Of a stretch of 64,000 nucleotides of DNA, positions 14,553-61,825 are shown one piece after another. The notes under the pieces are model-generated. The model ran no database searches. It was not told where the DNA came from and worked only from the letters and a program-made list of their open reading frames with translations. Position numbers and translations under genes: made by a program. Source of the stretch: Hydractinia symbiolongicarpus (Eukaryota; Cnidaria; Hydrozoa; Anthoathecata; Hydractiniidae); NCBI RefSeq assembly GCF_029227915.1, contig NC_079879.1, positions 6,694,001 to 6,758,000 of the forward strand. Direction: 5' to 3'. Each line of letters starts with the position of its first letter. Position 1 is the stretch's first letter.

Positions 14553-14995
14553 ATGAAGCTCGTTTTATTATTCGCCTTGCTACTCTCAATCTCTGTGTTC
14601 ATCAAGGCTGTACCTGTAAGTATGAATACGTATATTTCATTTCAACTCAAAGATATGTTGGATTTTTGTTCTGCTAGAAAGTTAGACTTCTATAAATGAG
14701 TAAAAAAGTAATTTCCAATGCAGTCAATTCTATAGAATTCAGACATTGTATTAGAGAATATTATTAATCATTCTGTCTTTTCTAACCAAAGGTTCCTGAC
14801 ACTACAACTTCTACCACAACAACGGCTACTACCACAACGTCCTCATCAGTGGATTGTAACATCGCATTATTCAAGAAGTGTGATTTTGAAGCTCCGAATC
14901 CTTGCTTTGGATGTGCTAGTTTAACATGCGAATTTGTGATTTCATTTAATGAATATGTTTGCATACTAAGCGGTAGTGGTCCTAGAATTAAGTAG
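14553..14995 (+). CDS. gene A: secreted Thr-rich six-cysteine peptide
   Basis: A spliced gene joining 14553-14615 and 14792-14995 gives 88 residues. Intron 1 (about 14283-14547, ending TTGTTAG) lies in the 5' UTR. Intron 2 is 14616-14791 (GTAAGT...AAAG, phase 0). Exon 2 encodes only a signal peptide: MK, a Leu-rich core, then KAVP, with likely cleavage after KA (V-x-A rule). Exon 3 encodes VPD, then a run of Thr/Ser (residues 25-40) resembling an O-glycosylated linker. Next come six Cys at 43, 51, 59, 62, 67 and 78, spaced C-x7-C-x7-C-x2-C-x4-C-x10-C, and the ending GSGPRIK. All family members keep this spacing, so three disulfides are likely. I do not recognise the domain. Export and disulfide bonding are inferred; function is unknown. 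The start ATG follows the conserved splice acceptor and CCACG context. Confidence 0.85.
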
Positions 14996-16339
14996 CATCC
15001 TTTAAAGAATGCATTGTTTTATTTGTACATATAAAAAGATGTAATATTGAGGGCTACAGCTTAGATTTTATTTAAAAATAACTTATATATTCTATAAAAA
15101 CGTGTTATACTGAATTCTACCCCATGGTCAGTTTTATCTGATAGTGCCACATTGCCTAAGTTAAAAAATGACGTATGATAAAATTTTCGTCGCTTTTGTC
15201 ATTTTTGTCTGACATCTACTAGTTCCACATCTTTGTCTTCCACATCTTTGTCGTCAATAATTTGCTTGTATGATGCAACGCGGAATATGTGTTTCTTGTA
15301 ACGTTTCTCTGTTAAATAATTGCGGTAGCAATACAAGTTAAACGAGAACGCAAATAACCCAACTTCTCTTTCTTACGTAGACACGTCAAGAAAATCTAGT
15401 TAAATCTTGATGCAATATCAACAACACTTTTCTATATTTATATAGACGGATTAAGAAGGTACACATTACTTGCACAAAGTAATGATAGCGTTGTCTAAAA
15501 TTTGCCAAAGTATATAACTATTATCGTACTACCACCTTAATCCTTGCACAATTAAGTTTTGATAGTTGGCTTTGTTACTTTTTACATGAGTATATTTCGT
15601 AGAACACATTACTCATGGTTTTTTAAAAAAAAAATCTGTCGCAGTAAAAATCGGCTTACGTCTGCGGAAAATGACGAATCTTCTTACTTTTTTCAACCGG
15701 TTAGATCCTGTTAGGTTATGTAAATATTAATAGCTGGAAGACTTTGCCGTTTCTAAAAAATGTTTTTATTTTCAGACATGATTAACCGTTTTTATATTTA
15801 AAGGTGATTGCAAAGTAGTTAGTGTTGTTGAGGAGTGGCTATTTTAGGTTACTTAAAAAGTGTTGAACAACAGTTGTACAACAAGCGTTGTTACAACTTT
15901 AATGGAAACACAACATACCACACAAGAGATAGAATATACCGACTTTAATAAAAAACGACCTTATGATACATTGATCCCGTGTTATAGAAATTTTAATATC
16001 TTTGTTAAGCAGTTAGTTCATGAAAAAATAAGAAAACATGTTAATTAGTTCACTTAGTGGCCAGTTAGTCATAGATGAGCGTTCTACAGATTCATTTCGT
16101 GAAATGTGTTAATAAACTATCATTTGGTTTCGTCTGAACACGTACCTTGGTAGTTGCATCTGAGATTTATGTCGAAGAAGTGCATGCAAAAATTATGCAT
16201 GTAAAAAGATAAACATCATTAAGTAATATTATTTATATGTTATTGCACCCAATTGTATTTTGCTACATTTATTTATGAGTTTAAAGCAGCTTAAGTTTGG
16301 CTAGGATAACAAGTCACAACCCTAGTGACAAATGTTTTT
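14996..16339. other. 3' flank of gene A and non-coding interval
   Basis: The first ~130 bases (CATCC after the stop, then ATATAAAAAG and GGGCTA...GATTTTATT...ATAACTTATAT) are shared with the 3' flank of gene B and, in part, with genes C-E, so they probably include the 3' UTR. Beyond that I see no gene. The duplicated words TTCCACATCTTTGTC occur twice near 15225-15255. Confidence 0.45.
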
Positions 16340-16745
16340 CTAACATATTATGACCTGGCGGGGGCGGATTCCGCCAGCACTTTTTCCGTGACGTCACCGG
16401 AAGCTTGAAATTTGTCCAAAATACCACTTTCAATTCAATTACAGTAGTTCTGAAGCGAATTTAATATATTTTTTAAAAGTTTCTGACAGCTAAGTAAATT
16501 AATTTAACAAATGTTCTGTTATATAGTTTCTATGAAAGAAAGTCAATTTTCCTAATTTTTGGGTGAAATCCGAAAATATCAGGAAAGATTAATGGTAAAT
16601 AAAGTTGTATTGTAAGTTTCGTATTCATAGGGTAAACCTAACGAAAGTCATTTTATTTCCCCGATTATAATTTCGAGTCAGCGAAAATCTATGGGTCTGA
16701 GATGCATGGGTCCTAAAAACATCTGCCTAAAAAATAAATATATAA
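16340..16745 (+). repeat. dispersed repeat R5, copy 1
   Basis: Matches 52277-52810 in order: GTGACGTCA, TTGAATT/TCAATTAC, TAGTTCT, AGCGAATTT, GAAATCCGAA, AAAGTTGTATTGTAAGTTTC, GGGTAAACCTAAC, TTTCGAGT, then an A/T tail of TAAATA type. The tail at one end suggests a retroposed element, but no coding sequence or tRNA-like head is visible. Confidence 0.6.
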
Positions 16746-16764
16746 ATAAGTAAGCATCTTAACC

Positions 16765-17154
16765 ATGCAGCATGGCAAAAAAGCGTTTCTTAAAATAAGT
16801 CGTCAAAGGGGGGATCCGCCCGCACCTGGATCGAGCAGGGTTAATATCGTTAAAAATGTGATAAAATATTCATCGTATCAAGCTAAAAGTTATAAAAGTG
16901 CATGTTCTGAATGTAACAGGTATTTAGATAAAAAGCGTCAAAGTAAGGCCTTTCACAATAATCACCGCTACACTAGATTGTCCATCAAAGATGCTACAAT
17001 CGCTAGAACCATATTTTGCATGGGTTTGTGTTTAAACTGCTGTATTGCAAAAATGCGGCTTTTAGTGAAATGGAAATGCAATTTTGTAGATAGCTTGGCG
17101 GCAAAATCAAAGGAGCCATCGCTACGACAATATCATATTGACGACGGCGCATAA
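16765..17154 (+). other. 129-codon open frame, unidentified
   Basis: An uninterrupted frame with a mixed, basic composition and several Cys and Lys residues (for example ACSECNRYLDKKRQSK near residue 45 and CMGLCLNCC near 85). It is less low-complexity than other open frames here. It follows directly on repeat R5 and precedes R1, so it may be a fragment of a transposon protein. No family is recognised, no neighbouring exon is evident and no second copy exists in the window. Confidence 0.2.
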
Positions 17155-17394
17155 TAAGCTACGTCTATTGTAAATAGTTTCCAAACACTTTATGATGCCT
17201 TCATTTGCACGAAGAAAGTTCTTGCTAAATCTGTCTAAAGTAGGCAGTAAGTAAAAGCTCTAAATAGACTAAAAGAAAAGCCAATCTATTATCTATTCCT
17301 TTGAAATGTTACTTCAAAATTTCCAACAAATATTTTTTTCAAAAAGCATTCTTCTTTCAGGCAAATGAAATAAAAAATTGGCTTCGAGCACCTG

Positions 17395-17767
17395 GTGAAT
17401 CGCTTTGTAAACTATGTTTGGACCTGACAGCAGCATCTAACGTGTATGAAATCACTCTTTTAAAAGTAAAAAATCACCGACCTTCTTTTTCTTCGCAAAA
17501 TAAGGAAATACGGACTATAAAAGTTGAACAATTTTTAGTTATATTCTTCTTGAGGGAAGGAAAGCATAAGATACCTACGGGTTTTTTATCTCAATAATTT
17601 AAGCTAACTCACGAAACTTTGTTATGGAATATCTTGCTACTATATTATTACAGGTAGAATATATTTGACGGTGCAATTGGAATCAGAAATGACTTACACA
17701 TACATAATAGCTTCTCTTGTGCTGTTTATGCTGAAGCCTCGATTTCAGCCAACCTTATTATTAAGAA
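17395..17767 (+). repeat. dispersed repeat R1, partial copy (first half)
   Basis: Aligns with 1545-1830, including TAAGCTAACTCACGAAACTT and GCAATTGGAATCAGAAATGA. It is cut off at 17767, exactly where the Helitron-like element begins. Confidence 0.6.
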
Positions 17768-17881
17768 CTAGTCGTTAGCCCGTGGAAATATCCACGGGTT
17801 CGCCCGTCGCAGCTAAGCTACCATTTTCCGTGACAGACAGACGGACGGACGGACAGACGTATACGGGCATTATAATATAGA
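17768..17881 (-). mobile_element. complete 114-bp non-autonomous Helitron-like element
   Basis: Read on the minus strand it begins TCTATATTATAATGCCCGTA, runs into a GTCY-type microsatellite (CGTCTGTCCGTCCGTCTGTC), and ends with an 8-bp perfect hairpin (CCCGTGGA, four-base loop, TCCACGGG; 17798-17779), 11 bases on to CTAG. It is flanked by A on the 5' side and T on the 3' side. TC at the 5' end, a hairpin about 11 nt before a CTRR 3' end, and A|T insertion are the hallmarks of Helitrons. An internal GTCY microsatellite is known from Helentron-associated elements such as DINE-1. It has no coding capacity, so mobility would depend on a partner elsewhere. Confidence 0.72.
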
Positions 17882-19140
17882 TTATTTAAAGATAATTAAC
17901 TCCTATATATACGAAGGTGTGGCACTCGAGGGCTAAAATATGCTGATATCACCAGCAAAAATCTGAATATCATAAGGCAGAACCAAATTTTTTCAAAATT
18001 ACTCAGGGTTCCTCGACGTTGTTAATCATATTGGCTAGCGCTGAAACTTGTGAACGAGACGCGGTTGGAAGCTAAGGAATCGTTTTTTTTTTCATGCAGA
18101 AACGCCTTTCTGATGTCTGATGACGAGAGATGGTCACATCTGGATAATATTAATTTTGTGATTTTAAGCTACATAGCCAGTACCATGCCAGCACTTCAGG
18201 GGCACATTTGTTATTAAAGAGTTAAGTGATAAACAAACTACAAGGGCTAAATATATTGTTTTTATGTAGCTGGCTACACAAAGATTTTTCAAGGGATTTC
18301 GTCATTTTAAATATATAAAGATGGCTAGCTAGCTCCCATAACAGTGAACAGTCAAGACTAGAGTATATAGCTAGTTTGGTATGCAAGGCATGTCATGTAG
18401 GTTAAATATGTTGCCAAAAAAAAAAAAAAACTATATTTCATAAATAAATTTCTACAAATGTTCAGGTTTCTTTTATCAAACGGGAATCTATTTTTCATAA
18501 ATAAATTTTTGTAGATTTTCAGGTTTCTTTTAAGAAATAACAAAATTTGAGGAATATTCGCTTGGAGCGGTAATACCTAAAGTCTCTGTCCAAGTTAAGA
18601 CACACGGAGGAAATTTAGTGTAATGTGTTACAAGTCCAGTGGAGCGCTTATAGCATTAAAGTATGATATATTTTTCATAAACTAACATTCACAGGACTTA
18701 TGATAAAGCGTATGTTACTTCTGCAAAGAAAATACAGTTGTTTAGCATTTTTCGTTTTGCATAATAAGTTTCTGTGGATATTCAAAAATTAATTGTGAGT
18801 GGCAACAGGTTGAGCGATTAGTGAAAGTACACGTGTTGCAGATCCAGGTGGACAAAAAAAATTTCTAACCACTTTGTATTTATATGGCATAAAATCTAAA
18901 TTATGTATTTGGCACTGTGCCTTAGAAGCACATTCCCACTTTCTCTGAGCTGGATCTGAAGGTATTTTGTCCTAAAACTAGTTCACATTTTATCTGTTTG
19001 AACTATTTATAATCCTGAAAATCACTTTGAAGGTTTTCTGTACACATGGGTTGTTAAAATTGATATGCTGTCAAAAACACTTTATCGGGTTCTCCAAAAA
19101 TGGCTACATTTAGGAACTCAGAAACTATAATAGTAATAAA
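17882..19140. other. non-coding interval
   Basis: No gene supported. Contains the short tandem duplication listed separately at 18431. Confidence 0.4.
18431..18541 (+). repeat. 57-bp tandem duplication
   Basis: CTATATTTCATAAATAAATT...CAGGTTTCTTTTA at 18431 recurs 57 bases later (18488) with a few changes. Both copies follow a poly-A run. Confidence 0.65.
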
Positions 19141-19192
19141 AAAGGTTTTTGGGTGCATTTCATCAAACTGGTCTAAAAACATATAATACTAA

Positions 19193-19690
<498 letters not shown>

Positions 19691-20165
19691 AAAACATTGC
19701 CTAAACGTTAAAGCAATATTGACGTCAACGGAAAGTATATTAAGATTAGTAAAGCCATTGCATTGCACTTTTAAATTTAAGGCTAAATAACTTGGAAACG
19801 GGTGGAACTAACTGACGTCATCTCCTGTGTGGGTAATTAGGGACTACCTGAGACCAGTTTGAGTAAGTTTTTCAAACCTGGGTCACCAAATCCGTTTCGA
19901 AATAGACGGGTTAATGACGTCATCAAAAACTTATAAACCATAATGTCTCTGCATCCATTTGTCAAAAGTACACGATCCTATACATTTTCTTGATCAGCGT
20001 TTCAAGATCTATACGATGAAGGCAACAGGTATACATATTTCTGAATTTTTTTTTGTGTTTTTACAGGTCTCTGCTGATGTCAGCAAAATTTAAATGACGG
20101 TTGTTTTTCTCTGTTATCCTGCTTAAGTGGATTTCTCCACGGGACTTTTTTCACGGGTATTTTAA
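19691..20165 (+). mobile_element. Helitron-like family 2 body and 3' hairpin
   Basis: Blocks ATTAAGATTAGTAAAGCCAT, TTGCA-TGCA-TTTTAA, GGCTAA...AACGGGTGG, GGTAATTAG and several TGACGTCA words align in order with 33165-33584. Near the right end is GTGGATTTCTCCAC followed by GGGACTTTTTTCACGGG, the degraded equivalent of the hairpin end, without an intact CTAG. With the TGTC tract the element would be about 970 bp, starting near TCTAAAAACATATAATAC at 19172. Confidence 0.55.
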
Positions 20166-20409
20166 AAACAACATTTTTCTCTTTGTGTGTTTTTATTTTT
20201 CTGCAAAAGTTGTTGCATAGCTTATGTATATGACATTAGGATAAGGATGAAAAAGTTACTGTGGGACATGGGTTTTAAAACTTAAAAATTTCCAGCAAAA
20301 ATTTAAAAATTAATAAATGACAAAATTGCAAAAAATTATCTTAATTTTTTTTAAATTTTTGTTAATGTGAAATTAATCGACATAAAGTTTCTGATGTTTT
20401 TTATGAAGA

Positions 20410-20485
20410 AATCTTCCATATTACCGACGTGGATTACCCCATATAGGTAATATGGAAGATTGTTCATCACGTTATCTTGATGAAC
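20410..20485. repeat. two adjacent perfect hairpins
   Basis: Hairpin 1: AATCTTCCATATTACC at 20410-20425 is the exact reverse complement of 20446-20461 (16 bp, 20-base loop). Hairpin 2 starts at the next base: GTTCATCA at 20462-20469 pairs exactly with 20478-20485 (8 bp, 8-base loop). There is no coding context on either side. It could be a young palindromic mobile element or a structured RNA; it is too short for a typical microRNA precursor. Confidence 0.8.
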
Positions 20486-21039
20486 AATAAATTTTCCCGC
20501 AGGTGTTCTCAAATATGTGTAATATAATTAAAAAAAATGTGATGTAATTTTCTATTTAAGTTTTGACTTTTAATCCTGGTAAAAAGCTCAGATTTATCCT
20601 TTCATACTTAGTCTCGTTAGCTACAGCGAAAAAGTTTGATTTAAACTTGAGCTATTTTACTGAGTATTAAGTAGTAAATGCTAGTTTAATCCTAAATCTA
20701 GCTAAACGGTAGCTAAGCTACCTGTAAGAACGACATCAAACAACGTCCAAGCTGTTCTCTTTTGTAAACAAACGAAGTGGTATTTTTGTAATAAGTACCA
20801 AATTTTATGTGTGCATTTCTTGCGCTTATTGGTGTAACCAAAGTGCACTGTACGTAAATCCTAAAAATTTATGTCATTGGCTCACTCTTTACGAATGACA
20901 TCACATAACAAAGAAACCGCGTTTTGCTATTTTTCGTAACCTATACCGAGATTTGGTTGTGATATATGTAAGAATTAATTGTCGTTAATATAAATTGTGA
21001 ATCTAAGAAGACTAACAAACTTTGGCTACAAGAAATCAT
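20486..21039. other. unassigned non-coding stretch
   Basis: No gene, RNA or repeat identified. Confidence 0.4.
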
Positions 21040-21600: not shown

Positions 21601-21789
21601 GCATTAATGTTATTGTTTTTTTTTGTACACAATAAATAGTCTCTTCTCAGAAGAGTTAACATTACACAGAATCAAATAACGATTTAACTGTTCACAATGG
21701 ATTCATTATGTTTATTTACAATTCGACGCTTTTACTGCAATTTTAATATTATCCAAATGCATTATATTTTGTCTTCGAGTTGAACGAGA

Positions 21790-36580: not shown

Positions 36581-36589
36581 TGATCTAAT

Positions 36590-37180: not shown

Positions 37181-37681
37181 ATGAAGGTCGTTTTATTATT
37201 CGTGTTGCTGTTACTATCAATCTCTATGTACGTCAGGGCTGTACCTGTAAGTATGAATACGTATACTTTAGTACAACTCAAAGATATGTGGCAGTCTTGT
37301 TTTACAAGGAAGCTAGATTGCTATGATCAGAAAAGGAATTTTCAACGTCAGACAATTATATAGAACAAAAGATTTTGTATTATAATTTATTTTTTTTACC
37401 TTCTGTTTTTTTTCCAATTAAAGGTTCCGGACACTACCACTTCTCCAGGAGTTACAACAACGTCAGACGGATCGTCGACAGATGCAGCGACGACACAAGT
37501 AACAAGTACTGAAGAAACGTCTACAAGTTCGTCAGTTAATTGTAACGATGTATTTTTCCTACCATGTGACGAAAATAATCCAAACAGCTGTTTTAACTGT
37601 GCGAACTTTGCATGCGAATTTGTCACCTCATTTAACGAGTTTGCTTGCCTACCAAGTGGTGGTGGGCCCAGAGTGAAGTAA
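37181..37681 (+). CDS. gene B: secreted six-cysteine peptide with long Thr/Ser linker
   Basis: A spliced gene joining 37181-37246 and 37424-37681 gives 107 residues. Intron 2 is 37247-37423 (GTAAGT...TAAAG, phase 0), directly after the signal peptide (MKVVLLFV, Leu-rich core, YVRAVP), as in gene A. Exon 3 begins VPDTTTS, then has a Thr/Ser/Gly/Glu linker of about 35 residues. This is the longest in the family and contains acidic residues the others lack. The six Cys lie at 62, 70, 78, 81, 86 and 97 with the family spacing C-x7-C-x7-C-x2-C-x4-C-x10-C. The ending GGGPRVK matches GSGPRIK of the others. The upstream region is a diverged duplicate of the gene A region. Secretion is inferred from the signal peptide; function is unknown. 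Confidence 0.85.
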
Positions 37682-40000: not shown

Positions 40001-40966
40001 TGTGAATTTATGGTCGTTCATTTAAACTTCCAGAACGCTCTTGAAACGCAATATTAAGATTGCTGTAGTAACGTATACTTTTTTGCTACATAAACTAAAC
40101 TCTAATTAAACTAAAATTGATTAGCTGGAACAGACGTTAAGGATTTGCTTTACGTGTTTTCAGATTGTCCAATTAGAATACTGAAGTATTTCAATTTAGA
40201 TAAAGTTTTTACCTTTAAAAAGTCAAGAATGTCAAAAAAATTGTGACATCATCAAAAATCAACTACATTGTTAAAAGTCAATAACGTCGCTAAAATGTTT
40301 CTTCAATTTACTTTAATTACCCGTCCTGTTTTAACTTAAGAACAGAAAGAAAAAAGGACAAGCTTGATACGTTAAGAACTATTTATCATATACTTCGCAT
40401 TTGCAGAAAATGTTAATTTTACCGTTCATTCTTGTTTTTCAATTATAATAGTTTGCTTTCTGTGCAGTTAATGATCTAGTTTTATGTGCATTGGGTGTAT
40501 AATCAATAATTTCTTGCATTAGTTACTTTAATGTTAATGTAAGCATGATTTATCCGAAATGAAAGTTTTGCGCGCGTGTAGAAAGCTAATGCGCAGGTGT
40601 ACAAAGTTACTTCGCATGTGCAGTTCACGCAACTCCTAAAATGAAGAACTTCATATAAACTGGAAAAAATTCCATCGCGTATTAAATCTCGCTACGGCTA
40701 AGTCATATATGGCTATCAAACTCGCCTGTTTTTCCTCTCACTTTTTCTGTTTGTATTTTATTGATCGAAAGTGTTAGCATTCTAAAGTGAGGAAACAATC
40801 AGAAAAATTTTCAGAAACACGTATCTCAAGCAATACTTTAAATTTTGTTAAATTTGGCTTTTGTTTATGTACAAAAATGTGCAGCGAAGCCACAAACTTA
40901 AACAACTATGTAATAGTCGTAAAAACTGGAGATGACATAAAATGCTTATGTAGACCTTGCATCATG
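40001..40966. other. unassigned non-coding stretch
   Basis: Short frames only. No gene or repeat recognised. Confidence 0.4.
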
Positions 40967-41260
40967 CGGAGATGGTGTAGTGGTAGCACATTTGGGTTGT
41001 GATCATATGGTCTGAAGTTTGAGTCCCCACTTCCGCGCATTTTAAATGTAGTGTTGTCGTGTTGTCAACTCATTTGGTGCCATCTACTGAACGCCAATCG
41101 GCTTGTGTGGCAGGCAAGTAAGTTAGAACAATGCTGTATGTATCTCGTGTGGTATTGTAACATAGCTGCAGTTGGAGGAAAGGGAGAGCCAGCCGTTAGG
41201 ATGGAATCCCCAAAAACATTAACACTTCCCGTTACATCAGCAATTCCTGAATTTTAAAGA
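40967..41260 (+). mobile_element. tRNA-derived SINE, copy 2
   Basis: GCGGAGATGGTGTAGTGGTA gives a strong A box; GTTTGAGTCCCC gives the B box, and GCGGAGA...CTTCCGC can form most of an acceptor stem. The position equivalent to an anticodon reads GTG, but its stem is unpaired. The body (ATTTTAAATGTAGTGTTGTC, TTTGGTGCCATCTACTGAAC, GGCTTGTGTGGCAGGCAAGT) matches copy 1 at 2103-2290. This copy is longer at its 3' end (to about 41260). Confidence 0.75.
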
Positions 41261-43119: not shown

Positions 43120-43990
43120 ATCATACACTGAACTTTCCGAAGAACAGCAGTGTTCACGTAACCAAGCCAAACATTTGACACATTGAATCCATGACTCACC
43201 TGGTAGAGAATCAAGCCACAAATCACCACAAACAAAATATTCGCCATCCTCAGAACTTAGTGCCACGTTTTTCGTTTTTGGCAACAAAATTTTATTTGCC
43301 TGCGAAACATTTCTTCGCTATTGAACTACTTTTACTGAATTGTGCTTTTTGTAAGATGTTGTTTTCTTTCTCTCAAGAATTTCTGGAGCCATGACAATCT
43401 CGTCGAAAGTTACTTGCATTTGTGACGAGAAGGCAACAGATTCCTCGTTATCACTTGTCACCACCAAAGGACGTGGATGGTCATACAAACAGGTGCGTCG
43501 TAATTGCCTGTTGTCACCTATTGCGTACTGGGTGTAGAAACAACTTCTGCAGTATTGGAATCACTGCTGGATAAAAGTGGATCTCTATGAACTGACAGGA
43601 ATTCGGTTTCGGGCAAAATGTTGGAATTTTGGAACAATACCGATAAACCTAGATCTTGATGAAGCATGTTTAATGGTTGCTGCTTTCATGTACGCCGTCT
43701 TGAGTAAACTAGCTATCTTATCTACTATGATACCTCTAATTGGATGTAATCGCACCCATGAGGTACAAGCGGCATTGAAGGCAACTTTAAGTTGTTCAAA
43801 AAATGTACAATCCAGAGGTTGTAACTTGTGCGAAGTGTGTGGAGGAAGTGAGAGCATTTTTATTCCATTACTCTGGCAAAGTTTATAAGTTCAATATTCT
43901 TTCTAAAATAACGAGCATTTGGTCATCTTTTGTTGCCTTTGTATGTTGGCTTAAGTGTCTTAAGTACTTCATGAATTGATTCCTATTAAT
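43120..43990 (-). pseudogene. pogo/Tigger-like (DDE_1) transposase, C-terminal fossil
   Basis: On the minus strand, NGIKMLSLPPHTSHKLQPLD (just before 43800) is the strongly conserved end of the DDE_1 domain in Tigger/jerky-like transposases, where it precedes the last catalytic Asp/Glu region. It is followed in one frame by CTFFEQLKVAF, SWVRLHP and AYMKAATIKHAS to 43585. Beyond a frame break, DGEYFVCGDLWLDSLPGESW, then IQCVKCLAWLREHCCS (43250-43140), recalls the Cys/His-rich tail found in many such proteins. Weak DDE sequence lies before it near 43900. Stops at several points and the missing N-terminus make it non-functional. Terminal inverted repeats were not found. Confidence 0.78.
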
Positions 43991-49719: not shown

Positions 49720-50469
49720 GTCACAAAAAGCTGCCTCTTAGCCTGTTAGATAATGCAACGATATTATCTCTGTGTGTTTTCTCTTTCTTATTTGTGAAAG
49801 AAAAGTGTAAAAAATTTCTTTAAAACGAAGGCAATAATCCCTTCGCACTGAAATGAAAAAAGCATCTATCTCGTCACTAAAACGGCTATTTTTATAACCA
49901 CAAAGCTGTGAGAACATTCATTATTGGTCTATTCGTAACCGTAATCCTGACACTAACTTTTAATGTAGATATGTGTACAATAAACACATAGTTCACGTTG
50001 CATTATAGCAGCGAGCTATTGACGACAAAAGAGTGCACAAATAGACTTCAGAAACAACAACAGGGTCGACGAAAGGTTTGTCTGGAGAAACGTTTGGCCG
50101 ACTTTTTTTGTATGATAAGACTGAGTTGATTTCATACAAAAGGGACCATGGAACAATTAAAATTTCGGTAAACAGGAATGAAATATATATATGGGATTTT
50201 CACTACAATATTTAAAAACAACAAGAAAAAGTTAAGGAAATATTAAAAACTATACTATTTTTTGGATTTAAAACATATTTTTAATATGCACAGTAATTTT
50301 TATAGCCTGGATAAACGAGATCATTAACGATTTTGCCACGAAATAACTTTTGTAATTCTACCTCTTTTAAAGAAAAAATTGAATGTGAATATCTGGGTAA
50401 GATATGCGACACAAAGCAACGTGACTTATGAGAAATAAAAGAACTACCTACCACTAAATTCTGCACTTA

Positions 50470-50600
50470 CTTCTACTTTTATAAAAAAGATCTATTATAT
50501 CTTTCTTTCGTCAAAAAACAAACCGACGAGCAGTAAGAACTGCTTTTATATAATTTAATGCATCTATGATAAGGTATATATATATATACATACAAGTATG
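50470..50600 (-). promoter_or_regulatory. orphan promoter and exon 1 of the deleted unit 0 gene
   Basis: Retains the exon 1 donor (GTAAGT, 50470-50465), the conserved CTGCTCGTCGGTTTG and TTGACGAAAGAAAG of exon 1, TTATATAAAAGC (50553-50542), the (TA)n tract and the CTCCTCCACATACTTGTATG upstream block. Nothing in the core differs from genes C-E, so it could still be transcribed, without a peptide to encode. Confidence 0.65.
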
Positions 50601-50654
50601 TGGAGGAGGGGCATAGAATGCAAAACGTGTTACTAAGGTGGATTACAACTTCCG

Positions 50655-50948
50655 TTATGGGTTTTTCTTCTTGTTTCTTAATTCTTGGTCGGACCGAATT
50701 ACGATAATCGATCTCACCTTCTCATCCACCATAACCGCCTTAAATAACCTTTGATATAGCCTTATCTTCTTCATCTCAAAAAAATCTACCACATCCCTCG
50801 CGATTACAGAAATGGAGTCAATTGAATGACTACGGCCAATTGACATCAACATTTTTAAGTGCTCTAGCCATTCCGTCAACTCTAAACTTTGCTTTGCGAA
50901 GGTTGATGTCAACTGTAGTATTACCTCCCACTTCTCCTCATCCAACAA
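50655..50948 (-). other. spacer open frame, intact version (97 codons, unidentified)
   Basis: An open frame 5' of the orphan promoter, on the same strand. The predicted protein is helical and charged: LDEEKWEVILQLTSTFAKQS near the start, then a stretch with ISVIARDVVDFF and IRLYQRLFKAVM. Compared with units 1-3, differences are mostly conservative in this frame, and one indel between units is exactly three bases (VILQL versus VLQL), which suggests coding descent. There is no in-frame ATG at its start and stops lie just upstream, but a possible splice acceptor (TTTTACTTTTAG) is near 50980. It could be an exon or a relic of a gene duplicated with the array. No family is recognised. Confidence 0.4.
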
Positions 50949-52276
50949 TTATCAACCTTACCATAGCACTCTTCCTAATAGTGCACGTTATTTGAGAACA
51001 GTCCCTAAAAGTAAAAATGCACTACAAACGTACTGATTAACATCACCATTTCTACTTTTTGTACACGAGAACTTTTGCCAGATGCCTGTTTGTTGCAGGC
51101 CGTACATATTCCAATTATTTAAAGATGTTTAAAATAATTACAGCAGATAGCTTATTGACTATACATGCGCGCAAAAAGGCATTGAGACTAACGAGATTTT
51201 AACAAAACTTGCTCCCTGTACATTCGACATACTCTTGTTTTGCCTATCTCAATGTCAAAAATCATTAGGGAGTTTCTTTGCTTTTCAGCAATAAGAAGAG
51301 AGTATTTTTTAATACAAATTATAGCTGCATTTGTTTCATTATATTACTCACACCATCTGTTTCTTTTTTCAGCTTTTCCGTGCATGTTATGTTTTTTTGA
51401 GCTATGATAATCAATGTTTAAATAATAACTAAAATGATATAATAACTAAATGTAGTTCGTATTAACTTTCTTACGAGAACAAAATTAAGTATTTGAATAA
51501 ATTGAGGTAAGACGGAACATGACAGTATAAAAGTGGATAGGTATCCTATATCATGAAAAAGGGCAAAATGGAAGCATTTTTTTAATGTCGACGATTATTA
51601 TTCGTTACTAAAACTTGATTAATATTGAGATAGTGCCGATACATATCTTTCCATTGTCAATGCATAAGAAATGTCATTGCTAAAATTACATTAAGACTTC
51701 AACTTTATGTCAATTAAAATGTCTTTTCTGGAATTAAAAATCATTTCTGGATACATTTCTAATATAATACCGTTTGTAGGGATAAAATGTAGTAGCAGAT
51801 AAAAAGTAAGACACCTTTGTTAGGACGCATTTGTGATAAAAAAGAGAACTAATACCACTTAATTTAATCTGAAGTCGAAACATATTTTTAACAGGCCCTG
51901 ATATAACAAAACAAATTTTCATTAAACAACTGTTAATTCTAGGCCAACTTTTTACGATTGTTTTTATAAAAACTGCAAATTCAGAGCCTTCTTTATTTGC
52001 GCAAGTATTTTTTACCCTTATCTTTTTCGTGACGTTTACTTTGATAATAAAATGTGGATTTATTTTAATTTCACACACAAAGCAAACATAATTTTTAATT
52101 TTATTTTATAAGTTGCTATTAAAATATAAATTTTTAAAATTTTTCCTAAAGAAATTTAATTGAAATTGAATAACAACTGCATGTCAAAGCGATATCCATC
52201 ATTTCATGCCTACATCTAGTGATGCATATACTTTTGCAATTTTCGTAACTGTATCAACAACTAATCTGCAAAAACG

Positions 52277-52810
52277 GGGTTTTTCAAACATGTTATGACT
52301 TTTCATAGATCCTTTCAAATTGAATCAAACTTGGCACACTTATAGTACGTCACAAAAGGAACACAATGGCGGCAATAAATTTTTGCTTGTGTCAGCGCAT
52401 TTTTTGTGACGTCAACTGCTTAAAATTGAATTGCTTTAGTTCTACAGCGAATTTTACATTCTGTTTGAAGTTTGTGAAAGCTACATAAATCTTATTTTTT
52501 TCATATAGATCGTATGAAAAAATTCCAAAATTGCATGGAAATCCGAATAAATCGGAAAATCTCGTGTCCAAAACATAGGCGATGATTCTTTTTGATGGAA
52601 CAAAGTTGTGTTGTAAGTTTCAAGGTCTAAGGATAATCCTAACAAGAGTGATTATATTTTCTCTTTTATAAGGGTTTCATAGAGATTTTTAGGGGTAGTT
52701 TCGAGTAATTGCCAATATCAAAGCCTCTGTAAGGCATGGGACCAAAGAATTTGACATGCAGGTGTCTAATAAATAAATGTTGAAACTCATAGGCCTGCAT
52801 TATAGCGTTA
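52277..52810 (-). repeat. dispersed repeat R5, copy 2, inserted in unit 0 only
   Basis: Matches 16340-16745 in order (ACGTCA, TAGTTCTACAGCGAATTT, AAAGTTGTGTTGTAAGTTTC, GATAATCCTAAC, TTTCGAGT, TAATAAATAAATG tail). The tail is at the high-coordinate end, so the element reads left to right; the array genes read the other way. Units 1 and 2 run directly through this site (CTGCAAAACCGG, then ACTAAGACAAG), so it is an insertion or a replacement. Confidence 0.6.
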
Positions 52811-53879
52811 AGGATAGTATCAGTAAATAAAAAATATCCAATGACATATTGGAATGTTTACTCAAGCAAATCACAATTCGAACAGAAAGCAATGTAAACA
52901 GTGTATTTTTGGCGTTATAAAATCACCTTATTAAAATCACTTTATTTTGGTTAATGTTCAATTGCAAAGTACCAAGCAAGAAGTAAAACGTATGTTGGCC
53001 AAGAAAGTAAAAAGAACTGAGTAAAGAGCACAGTTTCTTGTGTTTTTTCTTTCGGTCTTTCTACACTTATGTATCGAAGTAAATTATTATGAAAATATTA
53101 TGAGAAACCTAACTTGCATCATAAAAAAGTTTGTGTAAAACTTTCATGCTTAAGAACAACAGCGTCAGCTTAGCTAGCTACAAGCTCTTTGTTTCGAGAC
53201 CCATAGCCATTTTCTCTAAGTCCTAATTTACTTTATCAGTTATAATATGTTATAGCCTACTGCTATTATATTTCTTTATGTTTATGGCTGGAGTGGTCAG
53301 AAATAGTTAGAAAAAGCCTGTTGGATCATGAAAAGACATTATCTCTGTGTATTCTCACTTTCTTATATGTGAAGAACAATTGTGAAAAATCTCTTTAAAA
53401 TGATGTCAATGAAAATCCCTTCGTACCGAAATAAAAAAATCTTCTATCTCCCCCACTTAATGTCACTAAACCTTAACAAAGCGGCTATTTTCATAGCCAA
53501 AAAGCTGTGAGAACATCCTATATTGGTCTATTCGCGACCTTATTGCTGACAGTAAATTCTAATGTAGATACGCGTGCAACAAATACATACTGCATGTTTC
53601 ATTAGGAGCGAAATATTGACGACAAAAGAGTGCAGAAATAGATTTTAAAAACAATAACAGGGTCGACAAAATGTTTGTCTGGAGAAATATTTGACCGAAT
53701 TTTTTTGTATGATAAGACTGAGGTGATTTCATTAAAAAAGGACAACGGAGTAGAATTCAATTAAAATTTGTTACACGACATATAAGTTATATTTCAATAA
53801 AAAATTTTCGCCATAGCCCATCATCTGAATGTTCCTTCTTTTAATGTTTACAAATAACCACAGGATGTTTCGAATGATC

Positions 53880-54307
53880 CTACTTAATTCTTGGACCACT
53901 ACCATTTGTCAAGCAAACATATTCTTGAAATGGAGTGGAAAAGTCGCATACAAAATTAGCACATCCAAAGCAAGAATGCGGATCTTCAGAATTACATGTT
54001 TTGAAAAACATTTTGTTACAATCAAATTGTGTTGTTGTTGTTGTTGGAAAAGGTGCCGTGTTAGTAACCTGTGGTTGAAAAAGGTAGAATGGTTAATAAT
54101 ATTCTCTAATGCAATGTCGGAGTTTTACAAAATTGACTGATGTTGGAAATTACTTTTTTAGTTATAGCAATCTAGTTTCCTTGTAAAACAAGACTGCCAC
54201 ATATCTTTGAATTGTAATAAATTATACGTATTCATACCTACAGGTACAGCCTTAACAAACATAGAGATTGATAGTAGCAACACGAATAATAAAGCAAGCT
54301 TCATCAT
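53880..54307 (-). CDS. gene C: secreted six-cysteine peptide
   Basis: Minus-strand gene joining 54307-54242 and 54068-53880, 84 residues. Intron 2 (54241-54069, GTAGGT...CACAG, 173 nt, phase 0) follows the signal-peptide exon. Two adjacent in-frame ATGs open it (MMKLALLFV...KAVP); the second aligns with the single ATG of genes A and B, where the first reads ACG, so both starts are possible and equivalent for secretion. Exon 3 begins VTNTAPF, a short linker of one Pro and five Thr, then FDC. The six Cys lie at 39, 47, 55, 58, 63 and 74 with the family spacing, and the end is NGSGPRIK. The linker is far shorter than in gene B. Intron 1 (54640-54310) lies in the 5' UTR. Function unknown; extracellular by inference. 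Confidence 0.85.
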
Positions 54308-54640
54308 GGCTAGCAATTAAAAAATTAAAATTAATAAAATCTATAACTAAAAAAATAAAATATATATATGGGATTTTCACTACAATTTTTAGCAACAAGA
54401 ACAAAAAGCTACAGAAATGTTAAAAGCTTTACTATTTTTTGGGGTTAAAAGATATTTTTAATATGCACAGTAGCATTTATAGCCTCGATAAAAGAATTCA
54501 TTAAAAATTTAGCTACGAAAACACTTTTATGATTCTATTCTTTTTAAAGAAAGGAATGAATACAACTACCTCGGTAAGATATGCAACACAAAGCAACGTG
54601 ACGGCTAGGAAATAAAAGAACTACCTAATTCTACACTTAC

Positions 54641-54790
54641 TTCTACTTTTATAAAAAAGATCTATTATATCTTTCTTTCGTCAAAAACAAACCGACGAGC
54701 AGTAAGAACTGCTTTTATATAATTTAATGGATCTATGATAAGGTATATATATATACTTACATACAAGTATGTGGAGGAGTGGCATAGAAT
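54641..54790 (-). promoter_or_regulatory. promoter and exon 1 of gene C
   Basis: Minus strand: CTCCTCCACATACTTGTATG, (TA)n, TTATATAAAAGC (54722-54711), CTTACTGCTCGTCGGTTTG, TTGACGAAAGAAAG, ending at the donor GTAAGT (54640). The TATA-like box would place the start near 54690, making exon 1 about 50 nt and wholly non-coding. Confidence 0.6.
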
Positions 54791-54849
54791 ACAAAACGTG
54801 CTACTAAGGTGAATTACAACTTTCGATATTGAATTTACTTTTTGTTTGT

Positions 54850-55110
54850 TAATTGTTGGTCGGACTAAATTACGATCATCGTTCTCACCTTTAATCCACC
54901 ATAACCACCTTAAATAACCTTTGATATAGCCTTATCTTCCTCATCTCAAAAAATCTACCGCATCTCTCGCAATTACAGAAATGCAGTCAATTGGATGACT
55001 ACTGCCCATTGACGTCAACATATTTAACCGCTCTAGCGCTTCTGTCAACTGTAAACTTTGCTTTGCAAAGGTTGATGTCAACTGTAGTACCTCCCACTTC
55101 TCCTCCGCCA
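54850..55110 (-). pseudogene. spacer open frame, frameshifted copy (unit 1)
   Basis: Homologue of the 97-codon frame at 50655-50948. The first part reads LAEEKWEVLQLTSTFAKQSL and continues similarly. It then loses frame because the T-run of the minus strand (A-run 54948-54953) is six bases instead of seven, giving a stop soon after VDFL. The sequence after the shift still aligns in the other frame (RLYQRLFKVVMVD). This indicates decay of a formerly coding segment. Confidence 0.4.
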
Positions 55111-57610
55111 AAAATTATCGACTTTTGCATAGCCCTCCTCTTAATAGTGCACGTTATTAGAGAACAGTCCCTGCAATAAAATCCACTACAATCGTACTAA
55201 TTAATATAAACATTTCTACTTCTTGTAAACGTCATCTTTAACATTTGCCTGTTTGTTACAGGACGCGCATGTTTCACTTATTGACTAACAAAAATGTTTA
55301 AAAATGTTAAAAATATTTACAGCAGATAACTTACTGGTTACCTAGTTAATTATAGATATAGCAATTGATTATATTTGTCGCAAAAGCATTGAGACTAACG
55401 AATTTTTTATGAAAGTTGCTTACTGGACATTCGAAAGACTCTCGTTTTTCCTATCTCAATGTCAAAATATTGTTAGCAAGATTCTCTGGTATTCTGTAAT
55501 AAGAAGAGAGTTTTTTAAAACAAATTTCAACTCCATTTGTTTCAATATATTATTCGTACCATCTGTTTCTTTTTTGGTTTAGCTGTCCATGTTATGATTT
55601 TCTGAGCTATAACAATCAGTATTTAAAAATAATAAATAAAATGTAGTTCGTATTAACTTTCTTACAATAATAAAATTAAGTTTTTGAATTAATTGAGATA
55701 AAACGGAACATGACAGTAAAAATGTGAATTGATATCCTATATCATAAAAGAAAAAAAAGGATGGAGAAATTTTATTTTATGTTAATGATGATCATTCATT
55801 ACTACAACATGATTATTATTGAAATAGTGCCGATACAGATCTTCCCACTGTTAATGCATAAAAAAATCATTGCCAACATTCACATTAGCACTTCAACTTT
55901 TTGTAAATTAAAATGTCTTTTTTACAGCTGTAATTATTATAAAATCATTTCTGGACACATTTCTAATATAATACTGTTTGTAGGGATAAAATGAGGTAGC
56001 AGATAAAAAGAAAACCTTTGTTAAGACGCATCTGTGATAAAAAAAGAACTTATACCATTAAAAATACTCTGAAGTCGAAACATATTTTAACAGGCAAAGA
56101 TATCACAAAACAAAATAAAATTATTATTCGTCTTTTTTATCCGTGAAAAAATCATATCTATCTGAAATTGGAAAGCTTAGTAAACTTGCTTCCTAATAAG
56201 TTCACCGTTTTAATTATATTATATACGTTAAGCAGTGCTCTCACAAACAACTGTTAATTCTAGGCCAATTTTTCTGCGAATCTCTTTATAAAAACTGCGA
56301 ATTCTGAGCTTTATTTTTTTATTATTAATTTGCTTTTATATTTTTCGTTGCGTTCACTTTGGTATTAAAATTTCGATTTATTCTAATTTTACACACATAG
56401 AAAACATATTTTTAAATCTTATTTTATAAGTTGCTAATATAAGATTGAAATTTTTCCTAGAGAAATTTAATTGATAAACAACAACTGCATGTCAAGTCGA
56501 TATTTATCACTTCATGCCTGCATCGTAATGGACATACTTTTGCAGTTTTCGTAATTATGTCAAAAACTAATCTGCAAAACCGGACTAAGACAAGTAAATA
56601 CTTGAGGTAATGGTATCTGTAAACAAAAAATTACCCCATGAAATATGGAAATGTTTACTTAAGCAAAACACAATTCGTAAGGAAAGCAATGTCTTGTGAA
56701 ACAGTGCATATTTGACATATTTGAAATCACCTTATTAAAATCACTTCATTTTGGTTGATGTTCAATTGCAAAGTACCGAGCGATAAGTAAAATCTATGTT
56801 GACCAAGAAAGTAAAAAGAACTGAGTAAAGAGTACTGTTTTTTGTGTTTGTTCTTTCGGGCATTCTACACTTATGCTTCGATATAAATTATTATGGAAAT
56901 ATTATAAGAAACCAAGCTTGCATAACAAAATAGTTTGTGTAAAGCTTTCATGCTTAAAAGCAACAGTATCAGCTTAGGTAGCTACAAGCTCTTTGTTTCC
57001 AGACCCATAGCAATTTTCTTTTAGTACTGGCTTAATTTTTCAGTTATATGTTATAGCCTACTGCTATTATAGTTCTTTATGTTCATGGTCAGGAGTGGTC
57101 AGAAATAGTTAGAAAATCTTCACAAAAACTGCCCCTTAGCCTGTTTGATCATGCAAAGATATTATCTCTGTGTATTCTCACTTTCTTATATGTGAAGAAC
57201 AATTGTGAAAAATCTCTTCAAAATGATGTCAATGAAAATCCCTTCGCACCGGAATAAAAAGAACCTCGATCTCCCTAAATTAATATCACTAAACCTTAGC
57301 AAAACTGCTATTTATATAACCACAAAGCTGTGAGAAAATTCTATATTGATACATTCGTGACCGTAATCTTGACTCTAATTCCTAATTTAGACAATATAGG
57401 GGCGAGCTATTGACGACAAAGGAGTGCGTAAATATATTTCTGAAACAATAACCGGGTCGAAGAAAGGTTTGTCTGGCAAAATGTTTGGCCGACTTTTTGT
57501 ATGATAAGACTGAGGTGATTTCATAAAAAAGGGACAACGGAGTAGAATTCAATTAAAATTTGTTACACGATATATAAGTTATATTTCAATAAAAAAATTT
57601 TCGAAAGATG

Positions 57611-58039
57611 CTACTTAATTCTTGGACCACTACCACTTGGTAAGCAAGCATATTCTTGAAATCCAGTGACAAATTCGCATACAAAATTAGCACATCCAAA
57701 GCAAGAATTCGGATCATGAAAATTACATGTCTTGAAAAACACTTCGTTACAATCCAATTGTGTTGTTGTTGTTGTTGGAAAAGGTGCCGTGTTAGAAACC
57801 TGTTGTTGGAAAAGGCGGAACGGTTAATAATGTTCTCTAATACAATGTCTCAGTTTTACAAAATTGACTGATGTTGAAAGTTACTTTTCGTATTTATAGC
57901 AATCTAGTTTCCTTGTAAAACAAGACTGCCACATATCTTTGAATTGTAATAAGTTATACGTATTCATACTTACAGGTGCAGCCTTAACAAACATGGAGAT
58001 TGATAGTAGTAACATGAATAATAAAGCAAGCTTCATCAT
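57611..58039 (-). CDS. gene D: secreted six-cysteine peptide, divergent array member
   Basis: Minus-strand gene joining 58039-57974 and 57799-57611, 84 residues. Intron 2 is 57973-57800 (GTAAGT...AACAG, phase 0). The signal peptide reads MMKLALLFM...KAAP, with two in-frame ATGs as in C. The linker is the same as in C with VSN for VTN. The six Cys positions and spacing are identical to C, and the end is SGSGPRIK. Relative to C, exon 3 differs at 18 nucleotides: 16 change the amino acid (13 residues) and two are silent, while every Cys and the FGCANFVC core are kept. Several changes alter charge (K to E, E to H, D to E). Exon 1 and promoter lie at 58373-58510. Confidence 0.85.
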
Positions 58040-58372
58040 GGCTAGCAATTAAAAAATTAAAATTAATAAAATCGATAACTAAAAAATTAAAATATATATA
58101 TGGGATTTTCACTAAAATTTTTAGCAACAACAACAAAAAGTTTCAGAAATGTTAAAAGCTATACTATTTTTTGGGTTTAGAAAATATTTTTAATATGCAC
58201 AGTAAAATTTATAGCTTGGATAAACGAGATCATTAACGATTTTGCCACGAAATAACTTTTGTATTTCTACCTCTTTTAAAGAAAAAATTGAATGTAAATA
58301 TCTGGGTAAGATATGCGACACAAAGCAACGTGACTTATAAGAAATAAAAGAACTACCTAATTCTGCACTTAC

Positions 58373-58510
58373 TTCTACTTTTATAAAAAAAATCTATTAT
58401 TTGTTTATCTTTCTTTCACAAACCGACTAGCAGTAATAACTGCTTCTATATAAATTAATCGATCTATGATAAGGTTTATATACATACATACAAGTATGTG
58501 GAGGAGGGGC
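58373..58510 (-). promoter_or_regulatory. promoter and exon 1 of gene D
   Basis: Same architecture as gene C, with CTCCTCCACATACTTGTATG, a shortened TA tract, a TATATAGAAGC box (58452-58442) and CTGCTAGTCGGTTTG. Exon 1 lacks part of the GACGAAAGAAAG block. The donor GTAAGT is at 58372. Confidence 0.55.
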
Positions 58511-58569
58511 ATAAAATTCCAAATGTGTTACTAAGGTGGATTACAACTTCAGTTACTGTTTTTCCTTTT

Positions 58570-58840
58570 TGTTTGTTAATTGTAGGTCGGACCCAATTAC
58601 GATCATCGTTTTCACCTTTCCATCCACCATAACCACCTTAAATAACCTTTGATATAGCCTTATCTTCCTCATCTCAAAAAATCTACCGCATCTCTCGCAA
58701 TTACAGACATGCAGTCAATTGGATGACTACTGCCCATTGACGTCAACATATTTAACCGCTCTAGCGCTTCTGTCAACTGTAAACTTTGCTTTGCAAAGGT
58801 TGATGTCAACTGTAGTACCTCCCACTTCTCCTCCGCCAAC
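58570..58840 (-). pseudogene. spacer open frame, frameshifted copy (unit 2)
   Basis: Same one-base loss in the T-run (58676-58681) as in units 1 and 3. After the shift the reading continues with VVMVDGKVKTMIVIGSD, closer to unit 0 than the unit 1 copy is. Confidence 0.4.
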
Positions 58841-61397
58841 AATTATCGACTTTAGCATAGCCCTCCTCTTAATAGTGCACGTTATTTGAGAACAGTCCCT
58901 GCAATAAAATCCACTACAATCGTACTAATTAATATAAACATTTCTACTTCTTGTAAACGTCATCTTTAACATATGCCTGTTTGTTACAGGACGCGCATGT
59001 TTCACTTATTAACTAACAAAATTGTTTAAAAATGTTTAAAATATTTACAGCAGATAACTTATTGGTTACCTAGTTAATTATAGATATAGCAATTGATTAT
59101 ATTTGTCGCAAAAGCATTGAGACTAACGAATTTTTTATGAAAGTTGCTTTCTGGACATTCGAAAGACTCTCGTTTTTCCTATCTCAATGTCAAAATATTG
59201 TTAGCAAGATTCTCTGGTATTCTGTAACAAGAAGAGAGTTTTTTAAAACAAATTTCAACTCCATTTGTTTCAATATATTATTCGCACCATCTGTTTCTTT
59301 TTTGGTTTAGCTGTCCATGTTATGATTTTCTGAGCTATAACAATCAGTATTTAAAAATAATAAATAAAATGTAGTTCGTATCAACTTTCTTACAATAATA
59401 AAATTAAGTTTTTGAATTAATTGAGATAAAACGGAACATGACAGTAAAAATGTGAATTGATATCCTATATCGTAAAAGAAAAAGGATGGAGAAATTTTAT
59501 TTTATGTTAACGATGATCATTCATTACTACAACATGATTATTATTGAAATAGTGCCGATGCAGATCTTCCCACTGTTAATGCATAAAAAAATCATTGCCA
59601 ACATTCACATTAGCACTTCAACTTTTTGTAAATTAAAATGTCTTTTTTACAGCTGTAATTATTATAAAATCATTTCTGAACACATTTCTAATATAATACT
59701 GTTTGTAGGGATAAAATGAGGTAGCAGATAAAAAGAAAACCTTTGTTAAGACGCATCTGTGATAAAAAAAGAACTTATACCATTAAAAATACTCTGAAGT
59801 CGAAACATATTTTAACAGGCAAAGATATCACAAAACAAAATAAAATTATTATTCGTCTTTTTTATCCGTGAAAAAATCATATCTATCTGAAATTGGAAAG
59901 CTTAGCAAACTTGCTTCCTAATAAGTTCACCGTTTTAATTATATTATATACGTTACGCAGTGCTCTCACAAACAACTGTTAATTCTAGGCCAATTTTTCT
60001 GCGAATCTCTTTATAAAAACTGCGAATTCTTAGCTTTATTTTTTTATTATTAATTTGCTTTTATATTTTTCGTTGCGTTCACTTTGGTATTAAAATTTCG
60101 ATTTATTCTAATTTCACACACATAAAAAACATATTTTTAAATCTTATTTTATAAGTTGCTAATATAAGTTTGAAATTTTTCCTAAAGAAATTTAATTGAT
60201 AAACAACAACTGCATGTCAAGTCGATATTTATCACTTCATGCCTGCATCGTAATGGACATAATTTTGTAGTTTTCGTAATTATGTCAAAAACTAATCTGC
60301 AAAACCGGACTAAGACAAGTAAATACTTGAGGCAATGGTATCTGTAATCAAAAAATTACCCCATGAAATATGGAAATGTTTACTTAAGCAAAACACAATT
60401 CGTAAGGAAAGCAATGTCTTGTGAAACAGTGCATATTTGACTTTATGAAATCACCTTATTAAAATCACTTCATTTTGGTTGATGTTCAATTGCAAAGTAC
60501 CGAGCGATAAGTACAATCTATGTTGACCAAGAAAGTAAAAAGAACTGAGCAAAGAGTACTGTTTTTTGTGTTTGTTCTTTCGGGCATTCTACACTTATGT
60601 TTCGATATAAATTATTATGGAAATATTATAAGAAACCAAGCTTGCATCACAAAAAAGTTTGTGCAAAGCTTTCATGCTTAAAAGCAACAGTATCAGCTTA
60701 GGTAGCTACAAGCTCTTTGTTTCCAGACCCATAGCAATTTTCTTTTAGTACTGGCTTAATTTTTCAGTTATATGTTATAGCCTACTGCTATTATAGTTCT
60801 TTATGTTCATGGTCAGGAGTGGTCAGAAATAGTTAGAAAATCTTCACAAAAACTGCCCCTTAGCCTGTTTGATCATGCAAAGATATTATCTCTGTGTATT
60901 CTCACTTTCTTATATGTGAAGAACAATTGTGAAAAATCTCTTTAAAATGATGTCAATGAAAATCCCTTCGCACCGAAATAAAAAAAACTTCGATCTCCCT
61001 AAATTAATATCACTAAACCTTAGCAAAACTGCTATTTATATAACCACAAAGCTGTGAGAACATTCTATATTGATACATTCGTGACCGTAATCTTGACTCT
61101 AATTCCTAATTTAGACAATATAGGGGCGAGCTATTGACGACAAAGGAGTGCATAAATATATTTCTGAAACAATAACCGGGTTGAAGAAAGGTTTGTCTGG
61201 CAAAATGTTTGGCCGAATTTTTTTGTATGATAAGACTGAGGTGATTTCATAAAAAAGGGACAACGGAGTAGAATTCAATTAAAATTTTTTACACGACATA
61301 TAAGTTATATTTCAATAAAAAATTTTCGCCATAGCCCATCATCTGAATGTTCCTTCTTTTAATGTTTACAAATAACCACAGGATGTTTCGAATGATC

Positions 61398-61825
61398 CTA
61401 CTTAATTCTTGGACCACTACCATTTGTCAAGCAAACATATTCTTGAAATGGAGTGGAAAAGTCGCATACAAAATTAGCACATCCAAAGCAAGAATGCGGA
61501 TCTTCAGAATTACATGCCTTGAAAAATATTTTGTTACAATCAAATTGTGTTGTTGTTGTTGTTGGAAAAGGTGCCGTGTTAGTAACCTGTGGTTGAAAAA
61601 GGTAGAATGGTTAATAATATTCTCTAATGCAATGTCGGAGTTTTACAAAATTGACTGATGTTGGAAATTACTTTTTTAGTTATAGCAATCTAGTTTCCTT
61701 GTAAAACAAGACTGCCACATATCTTTGAATTGTAATAAATTATACGTATTCATACCTACAGGTACAGCCTTAACAAACATAGAGATTGATAGTAGCAACA
61801 CGAATAATAAAGCAAGCTTCATCAT
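61398..61825 (-). CDS. gene E: secreted six-cysteine peptide, near-identical to gene C
   Basis: Minus-strand gene joining 61825-61760 and 61586-61398, 84 residues, with intron 2 at 61759-61587. The signal peptide is identical to gene C. Exon 3 differs from C by three bases: Met to Ile and Thr to Ala between the first two Cys, and one silent change. Cys spacing and the NGSGPRIK end are kept. Promoter, exon 1 and introns correspond to those of C at the 7,518-bp offset, so it is a very recent copy that should be expressed in the same way. Confidence 0.85.

Follow-up and report, generated by a model that had tools for sequence, protein, structure and literature searches.

A clustered, apparently lineage-restricted family of putatively secreted six-cysteine peptides in the hydroid Hydractinia symbiolongicarpus

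A stretch of 64,000 nucleotides from Hydractinia symbiolongicarpus (contig NC_079879.1, positions 6,694,001 to 6,758,000; hereafter the window, with position 1 as its first letter) carries five genes, here A to E, for small six-cysteine peptides that are probably secreted. They belong to a cluster of at least nine copies that extends beyond both edges of the window, and there is hardly any doubt that the gene family exists. A previous reading of the window from its letters alone (the sequence-only reading) had described five such genes as an apparently undescribed family. All five were found where it had placed them, although the family proves to be larger than it had supposed.

Gene models

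The cysteine spacing C-x7-C-x7-C-x2-C-x4-C-x10-C occurs exactly five times in a scan of all six frames of the window, once in each of the genes A to E (Table 1), and in none of 60 first-order Markov shuffles of the same DNA, which rules out a chance origin of the pattern. A looser version of the pattern, which finds 317 places against 94 in a reversed control, was too unspecific and was not used. In all five genes the six-cysteine core is followed directly by GPR[IV]K and a stop codon, and within the same exon it is preceded by a linker of 16-39 residues. This linker is indeed rich in Thr and Ser, as had been claimed, but the length of 9-35 residues originally given to it was too short, probably because only the Thr/Ser part had been counted. 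Upstream, a first exon of 63-66 nucleotides encodes a hydrophobic stretch that starts with MK[LV] and ends with A[VA]P. The intron that follows is in phase 0 in five of five genes, as predicted, and measures 173-177 nucleotides, with GTAAGT as the donor in A, B and C, GTAGGT in D and E, and AAAG or ACAG at the acceptor. Over all nine copies of the cluster the intron ranges from 144 to 233 nucleotides. A hydrophobic first exon, judged by eye, is present in all five window genes and in all nine copies of the cluster, and suggests that the peptides are secreted.

The predicted proteins have 88 residues in A, 107 in B and 83 in each of C, D and E, and those of D and E differ at two residues of the core and nowhere else. 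The proteins of C, D and E start with ATGATGAAG, with possible initiation one codon earlier; therefore the first ATG of E lies at 61825, which is the end point that the sequence-only reading had chosen. The prediction for gene B agrees letter for letter with LOC130644451, an 'uncharacterized protein' of Hydractinia symbiolongicarpus. A relative of 105 residues (P0002) shows 89% identity to B and derives from contigs no longer than 2,815 bases; its frame crosses the exon junction without interruption and therefore fits a spliced RNA, so that the contigs would be of RNA origin. An unspliced artefact or an array of pseudogenes is ruled out by the intact frames in eight of the nine copies, the conserved splice signals and the public model of B.

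Models of three exons had been proposed, of which the two coding exons are confirmed and the third, a 5' non-coding exon ahead of them, is plausible from conserved upstream signals. A TATA-like block lies about 400-500 bases upstream of the ATG in A, B, C and D, and is also present in a tandem unit that has no gene (see below). The same four genes conserve an acceptor, TTTTTTAATTG[TC]TAG, immediately before the ATG. The block and the acceptor together fit either a 5' non-coding exon or spliced-leader addition, a process that the available text of PMC11067881 describes as existing in Hydractinia.

Table 1. Positions of the six-cysteine genes and associated tandem units in the window
Feature	Position	Strand	Remark
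Gene A, signal-peptide exon	14553..14615	+	21 codons
Gene A, exon 2	14792..14995	+	Thr/Ser linker, six-Cys core (first Cys at 14855), GPRIK, stop
Gene B (LOC130644451), signal-peptide exon	37181..37246	+	22 codons; identical to the public model
Gene B, exon 2	37424..37681	+	39-residue linker, six-Cys core, GPRVK, stop
Gene-less tandem unit	49721..52277	-	both flanking blocks kept: upstream from 50177, downstream to 50165
Direct tandem array, part inside the window	53868..64000	-	units of about 3.7 kb: D, C, E; continues as F, G, H
Gene D, exon 2	53880..54068	-	
Gene D, signal-peptide exon	54242..54304	-	
Gene D, upstream block	54305..54823	-	TATA-like stretch and conserved acceptor before ATG
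Gene C, exon 2	57611..57799	-	protein identical to exon 2 of copy G, outside the window
Gene C, signal-peptide exon	57974..58036	-	
Gene E, exon 2	61398..61586	-	two residues from D
Gene E, signal-peptide exon	61760..61822	-	further in-frame ATG at 61825

Extent and history of the cluster

A further 100 kb on each side of the window was examined for copies, and four were found: Z at -7151 on the forward strand, and F, G and H beyond the right edge on the reverse strand. Genome-wide searches place all of the copies, at least nine, within C5:6,687,154-6,766,740, a stretch of about 80 kb on C5, the contig that carries the window. A search with B returned 21 matches, nine of them at E<=3.5e-14, eleven at E 0.004-0.07 and one at 5.5, while a search with C returned nine candidates that are the same nine copies; as these searches score the best candidates, nine is formally a lower bound. 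The family of five is therefore correct for the window but understated in size, since the cluster exceeds the window and has nine copies if a frame-shifted one is included. Public protein sets hold apparently one of the nine, B, as judged by protein searches. A larger, dispersed superfamily was considered for the eleven weak matches and rejected. Each of them carries two stop codons and keeps three of the six cysteines in its aligned part, which is almost unchanged across many chromosomes, and they are therefore read as a dispersed repeat.

The cysteine spacing is fixed in all nine copies and the frame is intact in eight. In the remaining copy, F (65131-65555 in window coordinates, beyond the right edge), the linker differs in length by one base, which breaks the frame, and the copy may be either a pseudogene or the product of an assembly error. 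Six copies, D, C, E, F, G and H, form a direct tandem array with steps of 3,660-3,786 bases from ATG to ATG. As for a second gene in the unit of about 3.7 kb, the longest frames upstream reach 87-125 codons per unit. The gene-less unit retains a promoter-like upstream block and a downstream block but has lost both coding exons, and 11 bases lie between its two aligned blocks. A tree of the nine copies groups Z with A, D with E, and C with F, G and H, and leaves B on a long branch.

A comparison of the D, C and E units in 150-base bins reveals a mosaic. Every bin between -2170 and -671 relative to the ATG has 96.7-100% identity among the three. Across the gene body (-670 to +529), C departs from D and E by 5-16%. 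Past +530 it is D that stands apart, at 6-25%, and C stays within 2.7% of E. Such a pattern points to unequal crossing-over or to conversion among the units of the array. Within a single cluster on C5, tandem duplication, unequal exchange and deletion would thus create, recombine and remove copies. On a smaller scale, D and E are identical across about 2.7 kb except at five bases, three of which fall within 11 bases of the core (53999-54009 in D and 61517-61527 in E), possibly a small conversion tract.

Searches for known families

A protein search with the five exon 2 sequences as queries against about 5.8 billion proteins, in which shared 5-residue words were required, recovered only B and its 105-residue relative. 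A full-length profile search gave the same two proteins among the best 8,000 candidates sharing most words, and a C-type protein query had no match in the protein search. No credible match to the cysteine domain was found in Pfam or NCBIfam. A sequence search of the PDB gave a best E of 0.9 or worse, which is read as chance, as are the Pfam matches to Zn_clus, Meg, HCMV_UL116, DUF515, FYVE_CARP1-2 and YxzE. Kazal, Kunitz, ShKT, EGF, trefoil and defensin domains are all small, disulfide-rich and secreted. The matches that Pfam lists up to E 10 include none of these, although the HMMER filters drop most matches above about 0.1 and such an absence from Pfam is not a test of fold.

A literature search of 5.39 million papers found none that names LOC130644451, and none of the papers listed describes the family. 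At the places listed under the terms searched, the Hydractinia genome and cell-atlas papers have no passage on the family (the words 'cysteine' and 'secreted' have zero occurrences in PMC11067881), and neither has the H. symbiolongicarpus venom paper (PMC8917316) under the terms used for it. The family thus appears lineage-restricted at the sensitivity of these searches, and its earlier description as one without a named domain stands, B being annotated only as 'uncharacterized'.

Chemistry and comparison with other cnidarian peptides

The chemistry of the products was computed on the eight intact copies, with an assumed start of the mature chain. The linker consists of Ser, Thr and Pro to 56-76% and contains no Lys or Arg in any of the eight, and the assumed mature chain is acidic in every copy, with an isoelectric point of 4.1-5.5 and a net charge of -1.2 to -8.3 at pH 7. 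Taken by itself, the core carries -0.2 to -3.3, near neutral to acidic, and it contains no Trp. A has one KK pair, which lies within the first loop. The GPR[IV]K end forms a basic stretch, and a locally positive patch would be compatible with the net charge. An acidic chain whose linker lacks Lys and Arg has no dibasic pro-site in that linker and no net positive charge, which speaks against a cationic antimicrobial peptide, and equally against a toxin precursor of the classic nematocyst type.

The nearest analogues by description are found in Hydra, for which the available text of PMC10945409 reports genus-restricted, clustered and secreted families with defence roles. These families (periculin, arminin, hydramacin, Kazal-like and HyCWR) resemble the Hydractinia family in small size, signal peptide, cysteine pattern and tandem clustering; they are restricted to one hydrozoan genus, as the Hydractinia family may be too, and the survey reports no homologues of them in Hydractinia (PMC10945409). 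The predicted precursors of 83-107 residues fit the small precursors of the Hydra type, and the tandem clustering of paralogues is shared by all nine copies in the C5 cluster. However, the same text presents the Hydra families as mostly charge-split, whereas neither a bipartite charge nor a positive mature part was found in Hydractinia, where eight of eight intact copies are net negative by whole-chain charge. HyCWR also has six cysteines, but it is described there as rich in Trp with a strongly positive C-terminal part, in contrast to the Trp-free core of the Hydractinia peptides (PMC10945409).

The coral SCRiPs are closer in charge. According to the available text of PMC2652719, they are taxon-restricted, combine a signal peptide with a cysteine-rich domain and are anionic (-1 to -10), and an anionic mature peptide is likewise predicted for all eight intact copies. 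The cysteine spacing of SCRiPs, Cx6-7Cx4-6CPx3-6Cx4-6Cx5-6CCC, is not that of the Hydractinia family, which has six cysteines and no CCC. Moreover, almost all SCRiPs are reported to have a proprotein convertase site, whereas the Hydractinia linker is a Thr-rich stalk that lacks Lys and Arg (PMC2652719).

Possible function

By analogy with these systems, the peptides may act as surface or mucus effectors facing microbes, competitors or prey, a tentative proposal that is the likeliest of those considered but to which we give somewhat less than an even chance, with a matrix or glue role and a venom role not far behind. Each peptide would be a small acidic secreted glycopeptide whose signal peptide is cut approximately after [KR]-A, leaving a Thr/Ser-rich, probably O-glycosylated stalk and a head of 46 residues closed by three putative disulfides. 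The N-terminal half of the head, with loops 1 and 2, would evolve fast, and the C-terminal half, which has GPR[IV]K at its end, would be more stable. Epithelial or gland cells would most likely release the peptides into the mucus or the glycocalyx at the surface, where the variable half would contact a foreign or fast-evolving partner, such as a molecule of a microbe, a competitor or a prey animal. This would make the peptides defence or microbe-managing effectors that do without the cationic membrane attack of classic antimicrobial peptides.

The proposal draws on the uneven variability of the core, in which 18 of 46 positions are invariant across seven distinct sequences, all six cysteines among them. 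Between the D/E and the C/G/H groups, the core differs by 0.125-0.14 per non-synonymous site and 0.055-0.076 per synonymous site, and the corresponding values are 0.075-0.087 in the intron and 0.113-0.117 in the 450 bases upstream of the ATG. The whole core thus changes about as fast as the non-coding DNA of the unit. The sequence between the cysteines had been said to vary widely, which holds for loops 1 and 2 and less so for the C-terminal half.

Several observations weigh against an effector with a diversifying face. Relative to the intron, the non-synonymous excess of the core falls short of significance (Fisher p 0.32 for D-C and 0.10 for E-H, on rounded counts), and so does the lower change of the signal exon relative to the core (p 0.15). 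As the 450 upstream bases differ equally, loss of constraint fits as well as diversifying selection, and significant positive selection is not supported by the rate tests. In other pairs, and most of all in those with B, differences at non-synonymous sites (pN) are well under those at synonymous sites (pS), as in A-B with 0.27 vs 0.65. In favour of the proposal, loops 1 and 2 vary more than the rest (p 0.016, permutation over non-Cys positions), and five of the eight core changes between Z and A fall in the seven-residue loop 1 (p 0.0015), but the loop partitions for these tests were picked after the alignment had been viewed. Loops 4 and 5 also vary, with 0.41 and 0.37 differences per site vs 0.50 and 0.52 in loops 1 and 2, so that the division into a variable N-terminal and a steadier C-terminal half is likely, but not proven, to be functional. 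The net charge of -1.2 to -8.3 is unlike that of the charge-split Hydra peptides. Moreover, a protein of the matrix, of an adhesive or of a venom could have this anatomy as well.

A structural or adhesive role is rather unlikely but has some evidence on its side. The products would in this case be matrix glycoproteins in which an O-glycosylated stalk is hydrated and the cysteine heads cross-link mucus, perisarc or holdfast glue, much as in insect salivary glue. The Ser/Thr/Pro content and the variable length of the linker are as expected of spacers, and among Pfam signals below threshold one deserves mention, New_glue (PF21827), which we take to be the Drosophila new-glue or salivary glue family. 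New_glue proteins share with the Hydractinia peptides a signal peptide followed by a Thr-rich low-complexity stretch, and three of six members of the Hydractinia family match the New_glue profile at E<=10. However, the match to B (E 4.1e-5, 23.7 bits) is below the curated cut-off of 31, covers residues 1-59 and omits the cysteine domain; it is expected from composition and likely reflects compositional convergence. In addition, a cross-linking head needs no variable lobe, and the Hydractinia peptides have a single domain per molecule and no repeats.

It is unlikely that the family encodes venom peptides of nematocysts or gland cells, that is, disulfide-rich ligands acting on prey or competitors and diversified by tandem duplication. 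Many cnidarian toxin precursors have a dibasic pro-site between the signal peptide and the mature toxin, and a Thr-rich stalk retained on the head is unusual for cnidarian toxins. None of the eight intact copies has the Lys or Arg in the linker that a dibasic site there would need, and the stalk would be kept on the head. Small size, richness in cysteine, clustering, lineage restriction and a variable loop all suit a venom, and the available text of a nematocyst-enriched transcriptome study of H. symbiolongicarpus classes 10.5% of 105 venom-like transcripts as 'unknown' and 24.8% as 'uncharacterized' (PMC8917316).

The variability of loop 1 bears on a further alternative, namely small protease inhibitors in which this loop, with seven residues and one invariant F, would be the reactive-site loop and vary with the target protease. 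Inhibitor families are often most variable in their contact loop, and a variable first loop inside a fixed cysteine frame is what such a protein would show. However, no inhibitor family was matched in Pfam, loop 1 has no Pro except in B and no fixed P1-like site is evident, which makes this reading very unlikely. More improbable still are ligands by which a colony would signal or recognise itself. Polymorphic allorecognition is a known feature of Hydractinia, and the peptides are apparently secreted, variable and clustered, but the exon 2 proteins of C and G are identical and diversity within the genome is thus modest.

An extended form of the effector proposal is unlikely. It holds that the family is a disulfide fold and effector class born in the Hydractinia lineage, with a mucin-like stalk and a two-faced head, whose N-terminal loops would be diversified by selection against a target in a microbe or a competitor, and whose versions would be produced by unequal exchange within the one cluster and give colony-specific repertoires. 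The sequence-only reading had left the function undecided among several roles, and the charge, the lack of dibasic sites in the linker, the loop variability and the history of the cluster narrow the choice slightly.

Other features of the window

In an Rfam search a single match in the window reaches the gathering score, a tRNA-like stretch at 40966-41037. It sits in a repeat that recurs at 2102-2253 (75%) and is probably a tRNA-derived short interspersed repeat. Two overlapping frames at 487-1049 on the reverse strand match consecutive parts of DDE_Tnp_1_7, presumably a piggyBac-type transposase, in different frames, which indicates a decayed element. A DDE_1 transposase fragment at 43585-43890, also on the reverse strand, scores exactly at the Pfam cut-off. 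At 19160-19700, about 500 bases of short-period tandem repeat leave several frames open on both strands, which read as repeated TDRQ or VCLS.

Significance

Hydractinia is used in the laboratory to study stem cells, regeneration, coloniality and allorecognition. If these peptides are surface or mucus effectors, as is proposed here, they are of a kind that cnidarians often evolve separately in each lineage. By itself the cluster overturns nothing. However, being compact, recently duplicated and mostly unannotated, it offers a small and testable case of the origin of new secreted proteins, and perhaps of disulfide folds, and it may help to explain how the surface of a marine hydroid is managed in the absence of the peptide families of Hydra.

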